A stretch of DNA of 33,831 nt. Source: Phycisphaerae bacterium SM23_33 (lineage in GTDB: Bacteria; Planctomycetota; Phycisphaerae; SM23-33). The stretch covers positions 8,064 to 41,894 of the forward strand of contig LJUF01000015.1 of assembly GCA_001303665.1 (NCBI GenBank), in the 5' to 3' direction. A program made the translations under genes and the position numbers. A model generated the notes under the pieces. That model was not told where the DNA came from and ran no database searches. It was given only the letters and a program-made list of their open reading frames with translations. Below are positions 5,299-29,861 of the stretch, in pieces. Every line of letters starts with the position of its first letter. Within the stretch, counting starts at the first letter, position 1.

Positions 5299-6294
5299 TC
5301 AGAACTGCCGCAGGAAGCGGACGTCGTTCTCGAACAGCAGGCGGATATCGGGGATGTTGTACTTCCGCATCAGCATCCGCTCGATGCCCAGCCCGAAGGC
5401 CCAGCCCGTGTACCTTTCGGAGTCGTACCCGACGGCCTCCAGGACGTTGGGATCGACCATGCCGCAGCCGCCCAGCTCCAGCCAGGCCGTCGAGCCGTCC
5501 GCGTAATGGAAGAGCATGTCCACTTCCGCCGAGGGCTCGGTGAAGGGGAAGAAGCTGGGGCGAAAGCGCGTCGCCACCTCCGGGCCGAAGTAGGCCTTGC
5601 AGAACTGGTCGACGTCGCTTTTCAAGTCGGCCATGGTCACGCCCTCGTCGACGTACAGGCCCTCGAGCTGGTGGAACATGTAGCTGTGGGTGGCATCCAC
5701 GGTGTCGGGGCGGTACACCCGCCCCGGGCTGATCACGCGCACGGGGGGCGGCTGCGATTCCATCACCCGGATCTGGACGGTCGAGGTCTGGCTGCGAAGC
5801 ATGACCGAAGGGGTGATGTAGAAATTCGCGAGTTCATCGCGGGCCAGGTGATCCGGCGGGATGTTCAGCGCCTCGAAGTTGTGGCGCTCATCCTCGACCT
5901 CCGGGCCGTAGGCGACGGAGAACCCCATCCGAGCGAAGATCTCGGTGATCTCCTCGATGGTCTGGGTGATGACGTGCCGGTGGCCGATCCGCAGCCCCGC
6001 TCCGGGCAAGGTGACGTCGACGGCCAGCCTGCGGCTTTCCTCCCCGCCGCCCAGCTCGGCCTTGCGCCGCTCATAGGCGGCCGTGAGGGTGTTCTTCACC
6101 TCATTGGCCAGCCGGCCAAAGTCGCGGCGCTGCTCCGGGGAAAGCTCCTTCAGCAGCGTCATCGCGGCCCGGACCGCGCCCTTCATGCCCAGGTAGCGAA
6201 TCCGCCACTTCTCCAGCGTGTCGGCGTCGACGACGAGGTGCAGCGCCTCCATCGCCTCCTGGCGAAGCCTCTCAAGCCGGACGTCTGATGCCAC
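5299..6294 (-). CDS. pheS: Phenylalanine--tRNA ligase subunit alpha
   Basis: 331 aa, GTG start; class II aaRS motifs (RVISPGRVYRPDTVDATHSYMFHQLEGLYVDEGV; FRPSFFPFTEPSAEVDM; GWAFGLGIERMLM). Confidence 0.95.
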   Translation of the reverse strand: MASDVRLERLRQEAMEALHLVVDADTLEKWRIRYLGMKGAVRAAMTLLKELSPEQRRDFGRLANEVKNTLTAAYERRKAELGGGEESRRLAVDVTLPGAGLRIGHRHVITQTIEEITEIFARMGFSVAYGPEVEDERHNFEALNIPPDHLARDELANFYITPSVMLRSQTSTVQIRVMESQPPPVRVISPGRVYRPDTVDATHSYMFHQLEGLYVDEGVTMADLKSDVDQFCKAYFGPEVATRFRPSFFPFTEPSAEVDMLFHYADGSTAWLELGGCGMVDPNVLEAVGYDSERYTGWAFGLGIERMLMRKYNIPDIRLLFENDVRFLRQF

Positions 6295-6329: not shown

Positions 6330-6968
6330 CTACCCCTTGGGGTCGTCTTGGCCCTTGGACTTTTTCCTGGCAGGCCTCTTCGGGGCGGGCTTGCTGGCCC
6401 TGGGCTTGGCGGCGGTCTTCTTCCTGGCGGGCTTGGCCTTTTCACGGGCCTTGGCCGCTGCCGGGGCCTTCTTGGCTGCTCGTCTTCGCGCGGGCTTGGG
6501 TTCCTCCTTCGCCGCGGGCTCCTTGGCGACCTCGACGGGCTCGGCTTGGGCCTGGGCGGCTTTCGGTCTGGGCTCGGCCGCAACCTTTTGCGCGGCGGGC
6601 TCTACCGGCTCGGCACGCTTCTGCCCGGCCGCCACGGCGACCAAGTCGTCGAAGGCCGCCGGGTCGGACACAGCCAAGTCGGCCAGGACCTTCCGATTGA
6701 CGGAAACGTGATTCTGCGACAATCCGTGCATGAAGCGGCTGTAGTTCAACCCTCGCCGTCGGCAGGCGGCCGAAATCCGGGTGATCCAAAGCTGGCGGAA
6801 CTCGCGCTTCTTGAGCTTGCGGCCGACGATGGCGTGCTGGCCGGCACGCAGCAAGGCCTCCCGGGCCACGCGGTACCGGCGAGAGGCGGCGCCGATATAG
6901 CCCCGGGCAGCCCTCAGAATCTTCTTGTGCTTGCGGGCGCGGGCGGCGCCCTTTCTTGCTCGTGGCAT
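6330..6968 (-). CDS. rplT: 50S ribosomal protein L20 with long low-complexity C-terminal extension
   Basis: MPRARKGAARARKHKKILRAARGYIGAASRRYRVAREALLRAGQHA...RKLKKREFRQLWITRI is L20; about 95 extra Lys/Ala/Pro-rich residues follow the conserved core. Confidence 0.95.
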   Translation of the reverse strand: MPRARKGAARARKHKKILRAARGYIGAASRRYRVAREALLRAGQHAIVGRKLKKREFRQLWITRISAACRRRGLNYSRFMHGLSQNHVSVNRKVLADLAVSDPAAFDDLVAVAAGQKRAEPVEPAAQKVAAEPRPKAAQAQAEPVEVAKEPAAKEEPKPARRRAAKKAPAAAKAREKAKPARKKTAAKPRASKPAPKRPARKKSKGQDDPKG

Positions 6969-7050
6969 CACAAGCTCCTCAAGGGCCGGTGAACGATCCC
7001 GCCTGAGGAAGTCCGTTCGCAGTCCCAGTCGGCCTCACGAATACGTATTC

Positions 7051-7245
7051 TCACAGTCCCAGCAGCTTCTTGGCTTGCTTTGCAAAGCACTTGGAGACGC
7101 CTCTGCCTTGACGCAGGAAGCGGACCCGCTTAGGCGTCTTCCGCGACTTCAGATGCCGGCCCAGAGGCCGGCCGCGCCGCAACTTGCCCCTCCCGGTCAC
7201 CTTGATCCGCTTGGCCACAGCTTTGCTTGTCTTCATCTTCGGCAT
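7051..7245 (-). CDS. rpmI: 50S ribosomal protein L35
   Basis: MPKMKTSKAVAKRIKVTGRGKLRRGRPLGRHLKSRKTPKRVRFLRQ...; start placed at the conserved MPKMKT inside ORF 7051..7335. Confidence 0.93.
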   Translation of the reverse strand: MPKMKTSKAVAKRIKVTGRGKLRRGRPLGRHLKSRKTPKRVRFLRQGRGVSKCFAKQAKKLLGL

Positions 7246-7566
7246 AAGCACAGGCTCGAATCGTTTGACCAATAAGGCCCTTGGCAGGCCAGTTGTCGGC
7301 GACGGCGAATCCGACTCGCGGAAAGGCAACGCCAACCGCCGCCCGGCACATAGAACAGCGTATTCTAATCAGCGCCCCGGCCCTGGAAAAGCTTTTTCCG
7401 GCGCATTTCGGCAGGAGAGACGCCGACCCCGTTTACAGGGCTTTGAGGGCACTGAAGATTCCCCCTGGGCTGTCTGACGCCGGCCAGCTCCATCTTCCGG
7501 ATGGGCGGCAACACACACATCGGCAGCCTGCCCGAGACCCACGGGCCGAGCCCGGCCGCAACAGAC

Positions 7567-8196
7567 TCATGTCGGCGGGGCCGAAGAGCCCTCCTCCGTG
7601 GGGGCCGCGCCGGAATCGCCGGTCGGCTCCTCAGCCGGTGCCGGCCGCTCGGCGGGGGCCGCTTTGGGCCTCTCCCGCTTGCTCTTGACCACCGGGACCA
7701 GCAGCATGGTCGCGGCCCGCCTGTCCATGTGAAGCCCTTCCTCGACCTTGGCGATGTCGGCCAGCGACGCGGCAGTGGCAGCAAGGATCTCCTGTCCCAG
7801 GTCGGTGTGGGCCATCTCCCGGCCGCGGAACCGCAGGGTGAAGCGCACGCGGTCGCCGCGCTGGAGAAACTCTCGGGCACGGCTGACCTTGATCTGAAGG
7901 TCATGCCGACTGATCTTGGGGGTGCGGATTCGGATCTCCTTCAGCTCCGTCGCGTGCCGGCGGGCCTTCGCCTTGCGCTCCTTTTTCTTCTGGGCGTACT
8001 TCCACTTGCCGTAGTCCATGATGCGACAGACGGGAGGCTTGGCCTGGGGGGCCACTTCGACCAGATCCAGCCCGGCGGCGCGGGCTTTCTCCAGCGCTTC
8101 ACGGGTGTCGAGGATGCCGACCTGGCTGCCGTCGGCGTCGATCAGACGGATCGGCGAGATGCGGACGCGTTCGTTACGGCGGAGTTCCTGTGCGAT
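7567..8196 (-). CDS. infC: Translation initiation factor IF-3 (probable AUC start codon)
   Basis: The ORF-track start at 8055 truncates the protein. Frame extension gives AIAQELRRNERVRISPIRLIDADGSQVGILDTREALEKARAAGLDLVEVAPQAKPPVCRIMDYGKWKY. In-frame stop TAA lies 24 nt upstream of ATC (8194-8196), with no ATG/GTG/TTG until the GTG at 8055. Confidence 0.9.
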   Translation of the reverse strand: MAQELRRNERVRISPIRLIDADGSQVGILDTREALEKARAAGLDLVEVAPQAKPPVCRIMDYGKWKYAQKKKERKAKARRHATELKEIRIRTPKISRHDLQIKVSRAREFLQRGDRVRFTLRFRGREMAHTDLGQEILAATAASLADIAKVEEGLHMDRRAATMLLVPVVKSKRERPKAAPAERPAPAEEPTGDSGAAPTEEGSSAPPT

Positions 8197-8279
8197 GGCT
8201 CTTACCCTCGAATTTCCTTACAAACCGGCGGCCCCGGCCCACCGCGGGCCGGTCCGCGGCGGCAAGCATTATTTTACCA

Positions 8280-10274
8280 CTAGGTTTTGCAAAACGCCGC
8301 CCGGGCGCCTCGGGAATTTACCTCTTCCCGCAGCGCCTGCACGGCCTCAGCCAGCGGGAAAGAGCCCACCTCGCCGACACCGCGGCGGCGGACGGATACG
8401 CTCCGCGCCCCGGCCTCGCGCGCCCCGACAATAAGCAGGTAAGGCACCTTCTGGAGGGTCCAGCGGCGGATCTTGGCCGCAATCTTGTCCGGTGTGTCGT
8501 CGTTTTCGACGCGCAGGCCGGCCGATCCGGCCGACCCCGCGACCTCGGCGGCATAGTCGTTGAACTTCTCGCTGACCGGCAGCACCGCCAACTGCACCGG
8601 CGAAAGCCACAGGGGAAACGCCCCGCCGAAGTGCTCGATCAGGATGCCGATAAACCGCTCCAGCGAGCCGAACGGCGCCCGATGAATCATCACCGGGCGG
8701 TGCACGGCGTTATCGGCGCCGACGTATTCCAGGCCGAACCGCTCGGGGATGTTGTAGTCCACCTGGATCGTCCCAAGCTGCCACTCTCGCCCGAGGCAGT
8801 CCTTGACGATGAAGTCGATCTTGGGGCCGTAGAAAGCGGCCTCATCCGGCTCCTCGGTGAAGTTCATTCCCAGCGCCGACACCACGGAACGGATGTTGGC
8901 CTCGGCCAGGTCCCAGTTCCTGGGCTCGCCGACGTACTTGGAGGAGTCCGGGCCGCGCAGCCCGATCCGCACGCGGTAGTCCCTCAGCTCCAGCGTCCCC
9001 AGCACCAACTCGACCAGCCCGACGCAGGACTCGAGTTCCGACTCAAGCTGCTGGGGCGTGCAGAAGATGTGGGCGTCGTCGCAGCAGTACCCGCGGACCC
9101 GGGTCAGGCCGGTCAGCTCGCCGGATTGCTCAAAGCGATAGACGGTGCCGAATTCCGCCAGCCGCAGCGGCAGCTCGCGGTAGCTGCGCTGGGTGGACTT
9201 GTATATCTGCACGTGGTGCGGGCAGTTCATGGGCTTCAGCAGGTAGCCCTGCTCCTGCCCCTCCGCCGAGGTGCCCGTCAGGATCGGCGGGAACTGCGAT
9301 TCCTTGTAGTAAGGGTAGTGGCCGCTGGTGCGGTACAGGCCCAGCTTGCCGATGTGCGGGGTCACCACCATCTGGTAGCCGCGCTTGACCAGCTCTCCGC
9401 GCAGCCAGGATTCCAGTTCGTGGCGGACGATCGCGCCTCGCGGCAGCCACAAAGGCAGCCCCGGCCCGACCTCGTCGGACAGCAGAAACAGCCCCAGCTG
9501 CCTGCCCAGGACGCGGTGATCGCGCTTCCGGGCCTCCTCGATCCGCTGGAGGTGCTCGTCCAGCTGCTTCTTGTCGAAAAAGGCCACGCCGTACACCCGC
9601 GTGAGCATCTGCCGGGCTTCGTCGCCGCGCCAGTAGGCCCCGGCCACGGACAGCAGCTTGAACACCTTGACCTTACCGGTGGACGGCAGGTGCGGGCCCC
9701 GGCACAGGTCCAGGAAGTCGCCCTGCTCGTACAGGCTCACGGTGGAGAGGCCCTCCTGCCGGGCCCGGTCGTCGATCATCTCCACCTTGTACTGCTGGCC
9801 CAGCTCGGCAAAACGCTTCCTGGCCTGCTCAACGGGCAGTTCCGTGCGGCGGATGGGAATATCCTCGGCGACGATCTTCCGCATTTCCTGCTCGACCTTC
9901 TCCAAGTCTTCCGCCCCCAAGGGCTTGGGAAGATCGAAATCGTAGTAGAAGCCGTACTGGAAATCGTCGGTCAGCGGGGGGCCGATGGTGTACTGAACTT
10001 CCCGGCCGTACAGTCGGCGCATCGCCTGCGCCAGCACGTGGGCCACGGTGTGGCGCAGCACCTGCAGGGACTGCTCGTCGCGGTCGGTAAGGATCCTCAG
10101 CCGGTGGGAGCCCTGGGTCAATTCCGCGGTCAGGTCGGTGGGCTGACCGTCCACCTCGGCGGCCAAGGCGGCCTGGGCCAGGCGCGGAGAGATGTCGGCC
10201 GCCACGCAAGCGGGTGTGACGGCCTTGTGGTATTTGAGGCTGCTTCCGTCGGGCAGCTCGATCAAGACGGTCAT
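8280..10274 (-). CDS. thrS: Threonine--tRNA ligase
   Basis: 664 aa; N-terminal TGS-like domain, RHTVAHVLAQAMRRLYG, LMKPMNCPHHVQIYKS-type motif, C-terminal anticodon-binding region; followed by infC. Confidence 0.97.
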   Translation of the reverse strand: MTVLIELPDGSSLKYHKAVTPACVAADISPRLAQAALAAEVDGQPTDLTAELTQGSHRLRILTDRDEQSLQVLRHTVAHVLAQAMRRLYGREVQYTIGPPLTDDFQYGFYYDFDLPKPLGAEDLEKVEQEMRKIVAEDIPIRRTELPVEQARKRFAELGQQYKVEMIDDRARQEGLSTVSLYEQGDFLDLCRGPHLPSTGKVKVFKLLSVAGAYWRGDEARQMLTRVYGVAFFDKKQLDEHLQRIEEARKRDHRVLGRQLGLFLLSDEVGPGLPLWLPRGAIVRHELESWLRGELVKRGYQMVVTPHIGKLGLYRTSGHYPYYKESQFPPILTGTSAEGQEQGYLLKPMNCPHHVQIYKSTQRSYRELPLRLAEFGTVYRFEQSGELTGLTRVRGYCCDDAHIFCTPQQLESELESCVGLVELVLGTLELRDYRVRIGLRGPDSSKYVGEPRNWDLAEANIRSVVSALGMNFTEEPDEAAFYGPKIDFIVKDCLGREWQLGTIQVDYNIPERFGLEYVGADNAVHRPVMIHRAPFGSLERFIGILIEHFGGAFPLWLSPVQLAVLPVSEKFNDYAAEVAGSAGSAGLRVENDDTPDKIAAKIRRWTLQKVPYLLIVGAREAGARSVSVRRRGVGEVGSFPLAEAVQALREEVNSRGARAAFCKT

Positions 10275-10334: not shown

Positions 10335-10456
10335 AAAAAAGCCGGTACACGAAGGTCCGGAGGACCCACGGCAAGCGCGCGCCCCGGGCTGACCCGGAGG
10401 GCCCTTAGCACGTCGTGGTGATCCTCGTCGTCTTCGGCATAGTTCGTGTACCGGCT
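10335..10456 (-). terminator. Putative transcription attenuator terminator in thrS leader
   Basis: Perfect 14-bp inverted repeat AGCCGGTACACGAA (10340-10353) / TTCGTGTACCGGCT (10443-10456). On the - strand the 3' arm TTCGTGTACCGGCT runs directly into TTTTT (10339-10335), about 60 nt before the thrS ATG. Confidence 0.65.
10405..10440 (-). CDS. Putative Thr-rich leader peptide MPKTTRITTTC
   Basis: ATG CCG AAG ACG ACG AGG ATC ACC ACG ACG TGC TAA: 5 Thr in 11 codons, located between the two arms of the attenuator inverted repeat. No clear Shine-Dalgarno. Confidence 0.55.
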   Translation of the reverse strand: MPKTTRITTTC

Positions 10457-10483
10457 GACCCGATAAAGGTCACTGCAAACCAT

Positions 10484-10511
10484 AGGGTATCGCCCGGGGC
10501 TCGAAAGTCAA
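10484..10511 (-). promoter_or_regulatory. Putative sigma70-like promoter of thrS operon
   Basis: - strand TTGACT (10511-10506), 16-nt spacer, TACCCT (10489-10484). Confidence 0.45.
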
Positions 10512-10563: not shown

Positions 10564-13119
10564 TCATGCCCAGCGGACGAGGCCCATCTCGCGGGGATCC
10601 GGCATGGCCTGATGGCGCGGCAGGACGCGGACGGTATAGCCGGCCAGGCCGCTCTTCCTGCAAGGCATGTCCGCGGCGTACCGCACGCGCCCTTCGGTGT
10701 CGGGGTCGCCCTGCGGCTCCATTTGCACGGCCTCGCCGGTGATCAACTGGCCGTCGGGGTCCAACTGCCCGTGGTACAGTTGCACCGACACGTCGCCGGG
10801 CGAGACCTTGCCCAGCATCACCGTGGCCTCGACCCGCACCGGCCGGCCGACGCGGGAAACGCCGTCCATGTCGTCGTGAACGAACTCGATCCGCACCTGA
10901 TTGAACTGCTCGAGGAACCACCGCTTCCATTCGGCCAGGGCCTGGGCCCCGCCCATCTCATCGGCGGTCAGCTTGCGCCAGCGCTCGGAGGCCGGCAGGT
11001 AGGACTTCTCGCAGTACTCCCGGACCATTCGGTTGGTGTTGAAGCACGGGGCGAGCTTCCGCATGGCGGCCTTCATCCGCCCGATCCACTGCCGCGGCAG
11101 GCCGTCCGGGCCCCGGTTGTAGAACATCGGAACGACTTCCCTCTCCAGGAGATGGTACAGCGCCTGGCTTTCCACGGCGTTCTGGTAGTCCAGGTCCTCG
11201 TAGGTCTCGCCGGAGCCGATGGCCCAGCCCACCTCGGGGCTGTAGCCCTCGTCCCACCACCCGTCCAGGATGGAGACGTTCAGCCCGCCGTTGGCGGCGA
11301 CTTTCATGCCGCTGGTGCCGGAGGCCTCCATCGGCCGCAGCGGCGTATTCAGCCAGACGTCCGCGCCCTGAACCATGTAGCGGGTCAGGTTGATGTCGTA
11401 ATCTTCGAGGAAGACGATGTTTCTGCGGAACTCCGGACGGCGGGCGATGTGCACGATCTGACGGATGAGTTCCTTGCCGGGGTTGTCCCGCGGGTGGGCC
11501 TTTCCGGCAAAGAGGATCTGCACGGGCATCTTGGGGTCGTTCAGCAGCCGACCCAGCCGCTCGATGTCCTGCAGGATCAGGTTGGCCCGCTTGTACGTGG
11601 CGAACCTGCGCGAGAAGCCGATGGTGAGGGCTTCGGCGTCGAGGACCTCCTCGGCGGCGGCCAGCTCCGCCTGGCCGGCGCCCCTGCGGGTCAACTGCTC
11701 CCTGAGCCGCCGCCGGGCAAACGCCACCAGCCGCTCACGACGCCGCTCGTGCGTCCGCCACAGCTCGGTATCGGGGATCTGGTCGACCGCGTCCCAGACG
11801 TGGACGTCGGCGGGCTGTTCCTGCCAGTCCGGGCCAAGATACCGGTCGTACAGCCCCGCCAGGTCGTAGCTGATCCAGCTGCCGGTGTGGATGCCGTTGG
11901 TGATGTGGTCGATGGGGATTTCGTGGTCCGGCAAAGAGGGCCAGACGCCCGACCACAGCCTCCGGCTGACCTGCCCGTGCAGCCTGCTGACGCCGTTGCG
12001 GCAACTGCTCAGCCGCAGGGCCATCACCGTCAGGGACATCGGCTCCTCGGCGTTGTTGGGGTCCTGGCGACCCAGGCCGAGGAACTCGTTCCGCGACAGC
12101 CCGAGTTTTTCCCAGAAATCCTTGAAGTACTTCTCAATCAGCCAGGCCTCGAAGGCGTCGTTGCCGGCCGGGACCGGCGTGTGGGGCGTGAACACATTCG
12201 AGGCGATGACCGCCTCGCGGGCGGCCTGGAACGAAACTCCCCGCTCGGCCATGAGCACGCGGATCCGCTCCAGGCTCAGAAAGGCCGAGTGGCCCTCGTT
12301 CATGTGAAAGACTTCCGGCTGAATGCCCAGCGCGGCCAGCGCCCGCACGCCGCCGATGCCGAGGATAATCTCCTGGCGGATCCGCATCTCCTGGTCGCCG
12401 CCGTAAAGCTGGCCGGTAATCTGCCGGTCCTCGGGGGAGTTCTCCGGCACGTTGGTGTCCAGCAGATACAGGTTCACGCGGCCGACGTGGACCACCCAAA
12501 TGCGAACCTTGACCGGCCGGCCGGGGAATGCCACCTCCGCCGTCAGCGGCTGGCCGTCCCGGGTGACCGGCTCGACCGGCATGTTGTAAAAGTCATTGCG
12601 AGGGAACAGTTCGAGCTGCCAGCCATCGGCGTTGAGCCTTTGCCCGAAATACCCTTGCTGATACAGCAGCCCGATCCCCGCCAGGGGCACGCCCAGGTCG
12701 GAGGCGCTCTTGAGATGATCGCCGGCCAGCACGCCCAGCCCGCCGGAGTACATGGGGATACACTCGGTCAGGCCGAATTCGGCGCAGAAGTAACCGATTC
12801 TCGGCTTGTCCGCCTCGCCGTAGTTCTGGTTCCACCACGACCCCCTGGCCAGGTAGTCCTGCTGCTCGCCCAGGGCCCGGCGGAACTGGGTGAGAAAACC
12901 GGAATCCCTGCTGACCGCCTCCAGCCGTTCCTGGTCGATCTGGCCGAGCATGGCCACGGGGTTGTGACCCGTCTGGTCCCAGCCCTTAGGGTCCAGGCGG
13001 CGGAACACCTCGCGGATCTCGCCCCGCCAGGACCATCGAAGGTTGTAGGCCAACTCGACCAGACCGGTCAGGTTCTCGGGCAAGGCCGGCTCGACTCTGA
13101 ACGAGCGAAGCGGTCTCAT
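10564..13119 (-). CDS. glgP: Alpha-glucan family phosphorylase
   Basis: 851 aa; [31 protein letters not shown]..., [57 protein letters not shown]. Confidence 0.93.
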
Positions 13120-28509: not shown

Positions 28510-28556
28510 AGCCATATCCGATGGGCGGCGATTCGACGCCTGAAAGGAGAGCACAG

Positions 28557-29861
28557 ATGAGATCCAAGAGCCTGCTAATCGGCAGCGCGGTTGCGCTCGG
28601 GGCGCTGTGGCTTTGCGCCCCAGCCATTGGCGACGTACCGGAGGCCTTCGACTATCACTATCAGTGGACCCCCGCCGGCGAGTGGTTCATGATCCGTGAC
28701 GACTACGGCCTCGGGCCGCCGGTGCCGAGCAGCGACGGCTTCGAGGCCCCCAATCGCGAGGTGCTGGGCTACGTTAAGGCCGTGGCCCTGGAGGTGGAGT
28801 GGGTTGAAGGGCACACGCCGGGGGTCCCGCCGACGATGACCCTCACCTGCCCGGACCCGGGGGCTGAGATCATGGCCTCGCCGGCGTACCCCACGGACAA
28901 CGGCATGGGGTACACCTACCGTTGGGCCGTCGACCCCCAGCCCAGCGGCGAGGCGGTCTGGTACCCGGGGCTGGGCGAGTTCCACCTGTCCGAGGTGGCC
29001 GCGATGGACTTCGCGACCATCTGCGTCCCGGGCCAGCAGACCTACAACATCCAGAAGCCGGTCAACAAGTACGGCAATCTCGACCAGCACGACATCCCCA
29101 ACATCGGTGGCTGCGCCTGCGGACCGACGGCCGCCACCAACTCGCTGGCCTACCTCCAGAACGCCTACGGCGGCCACTACGACACCTTGCTGGTGCCCAC
29201 CCAGGGCCAGGACCTGGACGGGGATGGGGACGTGGACTCCTACGACGACCTGATCGCCGTGGCCCAGACCCTGGGCGACGCCAACCACATGAACTGCAAG
29301 TGCCCCGGCGGGACGTACTGGGACATGTTCATCTACGGCAAGCAGAAGTACATGGAGGAGGTCGCCCCGAACAAGACGGTGTACGCCGCCCAGTCCAGTT
29401 ACCTCTGGGGCCTGCCGGGCGGACGGCCGGGGCCGGACGACTACCCGCCGGCCGAGGCGCTGCCCGACTGGCTGGAGCAGAACAGGGCCCCCACGTGGCA
29501 GTTCATCTACGACAACCTGGTGGCCTGCGAGGACGTGGAGGTCCTCATCGAGGGCGAGAGCTTCGGTCACTACCTCACCGTCACCAGTTTCAGTTGGTTC
29601 GACGCCGACAACGATCGCGTGGTGGACTTCGCGGAAGGGGCGACGATTGACTACATCGACCCCTGCACCGGCACCAACCGGAACTCGCCGATCTGGCAGA
29701 ACAGCTACGAGGACCCGCTGGACCTGAAGTATTTCTTCGAGGAAGGCGGTTACACGGTGGCGCAGATCACCATGGCGATGAAGGAGAGCATCCCCGAGCC
29801 GGCCACGCTGGCCTTGCTGGCCCTGGCCGGGGGGCTGCTGCTGATCCGCCGCCGGAAGTAG
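28557..29861 (+). CDS. PEP-CTERM protein with C39/papain-like cysteine protease signature
   Basis: Signal peptide; GGCACGPTAATNSLAYLQN and GHYLTVTSFSWFD; EF-hand/dockerin-like DLDGDGDVDSYDD; C-terminal IPEPATLALLALAGGLLLIRRRK. Confidence 0.8.
   Translation: MRSKSLLIGSAVALGALWLCAPAIGDVPEAFDYHYQWTPAGEWFMIRDDYGLGPPVPSSDGFEAPNREVLGYVKAVALEVEWVEGHTPGVPPTMTLTCPDPGAEIMASPAYPTDNGMGYTYRWAVDPQPSGEAVWYPGLGEFHLSEVAAMDFATICVPGQQTYNIQKPVNKYGNLDQHDIPNIGGCACGPTAATNSLAYLQNAYGGHYDTLLVPTQGQDLDGDGDVDSYDDLIAVAQTLGDANHMNCKCPGGTYWDMFIYGKQKYMEEVAPNKTVYAAQSSYLWGLPGGRPGPDDYPPAEALPDWLEQNRAPTWQFIYDNLVACEDVEVLIEGESFGHYLTVTSFSWFDADNDRVVDFAEGATIDYIDPCTGTNRNSPIWQNSYEDPLDLKYFFEEGGYTVAQITMAMKESIPEPATLALLALAGGLLLIRRRK

Follow-up and report, generated by a model that had tools for sequence, protein, structure and literature searches.

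A threonine-rich leader precedes thrS

The threonyl-tRNA synthetase gene thrS of Phycisphaerae bacterium SM23_33 is preceded by a short threonine-rich ORF and a putative intrinsic terminator. Leader-peptide attenuation of thrS is well supported, because the Thr ORF is conserved in relatives, the terminator helix covaries and is followed by a U-tract, the element is specific to thrS, and sister families carry textbook Thr leaders at the same gene. Although neither transcript nor starvation data are available, we consider it very probable that this leader responds to charged tRNA-Thr and acts as an attenuator of thrS. The most interesting result is the existence of two different leader layouts at thrS within one class.

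The window is the whole stretch of DNA analysed, 33,831 nucleotides in length. A base-by-base reading of its - strand recovered every element of the preliminary description (the promoter-like element, the arms, the leader ORF, the hairpins, the T-tract and the thrS start) exactly where it had been placed, and the Pfam domains upheld the operon order thrS-infC-rpmI-rplT-pheS that had been given (Table 1). The promoter halves TTGACT (10511-10506) and TACCCT (10489-10484) are separated by 16 nt, and a same-strand phosphorylase gene (DUF3417 and carbohydrate phosphorylase domains) ends upstream of them at 10564. The 3′ end of arm 1 lies 2 nt upstream of the leader start codon. Five of the 11 codons of the ORF ahead of thrS specify Thr (codons 4, 5, 8, 9 and 10), as can be read directly in the sequence. 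Arm 2, TTCGTGTACCGGCT (10353-10340), is indeed the perfect 14-nt complement of arm 1, AGCCGGTACACGAA, with 14/14 positions matched, and the T-tract that follows runs to 10335.

The RNA from 10460 to 10336 folds at -63.3 kcal/mol with the 14-bp helix included, and none of 200 shuffled sequences was as stable (z = -3.7). In the MFE structure, segment 3 (CGTGGGTCC), which is complementary to GGATCACCACG in the region of the leader Thr codons, pairs with the leader ORF inside the helix formed by the two arms; covariation does not show this inner pairing. Hairpins after the leader stop were noticed by eye in many relatives, and the one in the window is possibly an RNA polymerase pause or nucleation hairpin, a role that is inferred. 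A simple scan for promoters and terminators picked up neither in the window because of the weak -10 element and the long loop of about 90 nt, and the support for both comes from comparison with the sequences of relatives. Two further observations concern coding regions of the window: the rplT frame (7034-6330, - strand) carries a Lys/Ala/Pro-rich C-terminal tail of about 100 residues beyond the L20 domain, and the protein encoded at 28521-29861 (+ strand) ends with a weak PEP-CTERM motif (E = 0.0005, 20.5 bits, cut-off 20.7).

Table 1. Features of the thrS leader and operon in the window.
Feature	Position	Strand	Basis
Sigma70-like promoter, TTGACT-16-TACCCT	10484..10511	-	Sequence and comparison of leader loci
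Arm 1, AGCCGGTACACGAA, 5′ strand of the putative terminator helix	10443..10456	-	Pairing with 10353-10340; covariation in 24 loci
Leader ORF, MPKTTRITTTC, TAA stop	10405..10440	-	Short Thr-rich ORF, same place in relatives; mixed Thr codons
Hairpin CCGGG-TCAG-CCCGG directly 3′ of the leader stop	10384..10397	-	Sequence and fold
Segment 3, CGTGGGTCC, and small hairpin GGTCC-TCC-GGACC (10366-10354)	10354..10370	-	MFE fold
Arm 2, TTCGTGTACCGGCT, and U-tract, 3′ strand of the putative intrinsic terminator	10335..10353	-	Complementarity, covariation, conserved U-tract
thrS, threonyl-tRNA synthetase, ATG at 10274	8280..10274	-	Pfam tRNA-synt_2b, HGTP_anticodon, tRNA_SAD, TGS
infC, IF-3, stop-to-stop frame, start codon not fixed	about 7567..8217	-	Pfam IF3_N, IF3_C
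rpmI, ribosomal protein L35, gene start inside the frame	7051..7368	-	Pfam Ribosomal_L35p
rplT, ribosomal protein L20, frame, start codon not fixed	6330..7034	-	Pfam Ribosomal_L20
pheS, phenylalanyl-tRNA synthetase alpha	5299..6294	-	Pfam tRNA-synt_2d, Phe_tRNA-synt_N

The leader ORF is conserved across the order

The thrS loci of 38 genomes from the window's order yielded 36 usable upstream regions. A short ORF was found at the corresponding place in 32 of them, for example MRQNTTTTTC, MPKMTTTTTTQ, MNTTTTTTTTC and MTRTTTTTA, some of these ORFs being accepted on position as much as on Thr content. Among all 20 residues, Thr was the only one enriched in the short ORFs upstream of thrS (mean score 5.96, compared with -0.57 for the next-best residue and -2.37 for Thr after shuffling), and its score passed the cut-off at 23/36 loci versus 0/36 shuffled ones. 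Conservation of the Thr codons in relatives, on which the preliminary reading had been staked, is thus borne out. The first Thr codon occupies codon 2 to 5 in the order (codon 7 in L016), and several leaders contain only two or three Thr codons (L016, L018, L022 and L023). The Thr codons are mixed and tilted towards the less used ones rather than ACC: ACG and ACC account for 54% and 20% in the leaders versus 30% and 58% in the thrS genes.

Outside the order, the 79 listed thrS matches from other phyla showed no Thr-rich ORF of this kind, and in other classes of the phylum such an ORF precedes thrS in 1 of 40 cases, far upstream and AT-rich. Leader ORFs rich in I, L, V or T were also sought before hom, ileS, leuS and valS in ten genomes of the family, and none was convincing. 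The leader ORF is absent from four of the 36 loci of the order. Where the leader is lost in L111, a large near-perfect inverted repeat (ggtggcatggcgacacgcg...) fills the region upstream of thrS. In L025 and L017, long REP-like inverted-repeat insertions part the terminator from thrS, which they push to about 200-300 nt from the leader, and L115:41-89, upstream of the thrS attenuator, matches the Rfam Acido-Lenti-1 RNA above its gathering score.

A promoter-like score of at least 9 was reached at 78% of the 32 order leader loci versus 15% of shuffles, the commonest geometry being a spacing of 16 with the end of the -10 element about 36-43 nt upstream of the leader ATG. The core Shine-Dalgarno motif was detected in 0/45 leaders; translation of the ORF would therefore have to begin without one. 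The PLA46 16S signature was not found in 61 genomes of the class; the 16S of the window genome carries ACTCCTACGGGAGGCTGC, and ACACCTACGGGTGGCTGC is present in three other class genomes, both of which suggest a Phycisphaerae-like affiliation within the Planctomycetota.

The terminator helix covaries and is specific to thrS

In most of the 24 loci tested, arm 1 ends 0-7 nt upstream of the leader ATG or overlaps it, and its pairing partner lies 43-80 nt past the leader stop and is followed by a U-tract. Arms taken from the same locus scored 31.3, versus 20.4 for arms exchanged between loci (p = 5e-5). In the alignment, 85% of the cells of the AGCCGGTACACGAA/TTCGTGTACCGGCT helix are paired, compared with 32-39% when the arms are slid by 1-3 columns, and in 11 of its 14 pairs both partners have changed in a compensatory manner; no more than 1 shuffle in 500 reached any of these values. 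The ends of the aligned sequences were picked for each locus by complementarity, which inflates the share of paired cells. Furthermore, RNAalifold recovered the helix between the arms without a supplied structure. The terminator that had been described is therefore conserved in relatives, through both helix covariation and the U-tract. A covariance model built from the aligned sequences gave a single strong match per genome, always before thrS, the best match elsewhere in the 38 genomes having an E value of 0.004. Sequence comparison thus shows that the elements are present and conserved, that the helix covaries and that the structure is specific to thrS.

In L021 the ORF is lost and the hairpin with its U-rich tail is kept (-25.5 kcal/mol). 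A U-tract terminator of the window type could not be accepted in eight loci with a Thr ORF (L002-L004, L006-L008, L010 and L013), where the control is possibly Rho-dependent or translational. The Thr-rich ORF is retained in these loci, for example as MLTNTTTNS in three species, and several of them carry a CCGGACAAGTCGAG-like stretch after the leader stop.

Two layouts at thrS within one class

In the window's order, the 5′ strand of the terminator lies directly upstream of the leader start codon, and the entire ORF is therefore inside the terminator loop. Thr-rich thrS leaders of textbook arrangement were found at 13 loci of four sister families (f5, f8, f16 and f22). These leaders are longer (mean of 19 codons versus 10.8 in the window's order) and are followed, 27-41 nt past the stop, by a compact GC-rich terminator whose 5′ arm can pair with the last codons of the ORF. 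When the RNA was truncated before the 3′ arm and folded, the mean probability of this antiterminator was 0.76 for a ribosome placed on the first Thr codon but only 0.17 for one placed at the stop; shuffled ORFs gave 0.36. According to this modelling, the sister-family leaders behave like textbook attenuators. A search for a conserved alternative partner of arm 1 in the window's order came up empty. The attenuator reading of the preliminary description is thus sustained by the conserved Thr ORF and terminator and needs refining in one respect: the layout departs from the textbook one, the terminator strands flanking the ORF and no conserved antiterminator having been found.

The sister families also bear on the possibility that ThrRS represses its own mRNA through a tRNA-Thr-like operator, in the manner of E. 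coli thrS, the ORF being incidental. Autoregulation by E. coli ThrRS is on record (PMC2965389), and a structured leader does stand before thrS. However, an operator would leave unexplained the run of in-frame Thr codons that differ in their third base, the terminator helix with its U-tract and the textbook Thr attenuators of the sister families, and no anticodon-like conserved loop was noticed in the alignment, inspected only by eye. We regard this explanation as very improbable.

Ribosome position and terminator formation

In the attenuation mechanism that we propose, the transcript would begin about 30-36 nt upstream of the 11-codon ORF. When threonyl-tRNA is ample, the ribosome would clear the ORF and the leader RNA would fold, arm 1 pairing with arm 2 ahead of the U-tract with the ORF enclosed, and transcription would end near 10335. 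When threonyl-tRNA is scarce, the ribosome would stall at the start-proximal Thr codons, where it would cover part of arm 1 and prevent the folding of the ORF; the arms would fail to meet in time and RNA polymerase would read through into thrS. Inference alone supports the transcription start, translation of the leader, the termination event, a Thr-tRNA response and the masking switch. The control probably extends to infC-rpmI-rplT-pheS, for which there are no expression data.

The contribution of ribosome position was evaluated by modelling. With the A site at codons 2-4, the ribosome overlies arm 1, and the helix is weakened or lost altogether; at later codons the helix is still allowed at equilibrium. 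The mean helix probability is 0.44 when the first Thr codon is occupied and 0.80 when the ribosome is at the stop. Beyond codon 4 or 5, a ribosome on Thr codons fails to melt the helix in the equilibrium fold. Equilibrium folding with a masked ribosome, considered as a sufficient switch for the embedded layout, gave no switch and was rejected; the switch would therefore need kinetics. Folding of the inner region indicates that the path between the arms lengthens from about 8 to 29 units with the ribosome at the first Thr codon, which makes slower closure plausible. As we found nothing conserved that would compete for arm 1, we favour the inference that the ribosome itself acts as the antiterminator by masking arm 1 and keeping the loop from closing, and we put this at about an even chance.

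The persistence of the helix with the ribosome on late codons would also suit a constitutive partial terminator or 5′ stabiliser without sensing, in which the ORF is merely repetitive ACG RNA pairing with segment 3; the GTCGTGGG-like segment 3 is complementary to ACC/ACG codons. Yet ACG represents only 130 of the 244 leader Thr codons of all families pooled, so that 47% are other codons, the ATG and the stop hold the Thr run in frame, and the Thr ORF is kept in sister families despite their unrelated downstream structure. We give this explanation little chance. That the ORF works through reinitiation at thrS or translational coupling to it, and not through transcription termination, is scarcely credible: a proposal that covers many phyla, Planctomycetes among them, is that leader genes near start codons enhance translation, the distances peaking at 10-11 bp (PMC4833913), and the eight order members without an accepted terminator do have the ORF, but the leader stop lies about 80-300 nt from the thrS start, far past 10-11 bp, with the terminator in between.

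Relation to known attenuators

Ribosome-mediated leader-peptide attenuators control the trp, his, thr and pheST operons of E. coli. The window leader resembles them in its short ORF rich in cognate codons, in the intrinsic terminator before the operon (termination being inferred) and in the presumed signal, ribosome stalling. It differs in that the 5′ strand of its terminator is upstream of the ORF, which is held in the loop, in that no conserved antiterminator helix was found in its order, and in its target, thrS of a Phycisphaerae planctomycete. The Rfam scan of the window gave nothing relevant. The thrABC leader (RF00506, Thr_leader) likewise encodes a Thr-rich peptide, but the window-type leader is nearly pure Thr and controls a synthetase rather than biosynthesis. 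This model had no match in the window at its gathering score, and its single sub-threshold match was at one sister-family locus (23.2 bits versus a gathering score of 55). In Firmicutes, thrS is controlled by T-box riboswitches. Control by charged tRNA is common to both systems, as inferred for the window; however, the T-box senses the tRNA through its pairing with the leader and the window leader would sense it through codons. The T-box model of Rfam found no match in the window up to E = 5.

In Streptomyces lividans, the short ORF thrL upstream of thrS has been proposed as an attenuator, with 2 Thr in 18 residues and without a clear Rho-independent terminator (PMC8079986); it shares its position with the window leader and is weaker in both Thr and terminator. 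Leader-peptide attenuators are also described for hisS/hisZ in bacilli (PMC2965389) and for trpS and leuS in Streptomyces (PMC1262725). Like pheST, these are synthetase operons under codons for their own amino acid, but they concern other amino acids and phyla, and the placement of the ORF in the loop is not described there. We found no literature report of a leader-peptide attenuator for planctomycete thrS. Attenuation of aminoacyl-tRNA synthetase operons is reportedly the subject of Lopatovskaya et al. 2010 (Mol Biol 44:128), and a thrS case in that work is not excluded. We know of no attenuator with its leader ORF inside the terminator loop, our literature search on this point not being exhaustive.

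Implications

These data bring probable amino-acid-specific leader-peptide attenuation to thrS in deep-branching Planctomycetota. The window's order may hold a second attenuation architecture, restricted to one order, with the ORF enclosed in the terminator loop, the 5′ arm overlapping the initiation region, and closure of the terminator prevented by the stalled ribosome rather than by an antiterminator helix; the case for it stands at about even. If such a layout works without an antiterminator, searches that expect a compact terminator 3′ of the ORF would overlook these attenuators, and the failure of the simple scan in the window is one instance. The two layouts, at one gene and in one class, form a natural series for how ribosome position becomes termination.
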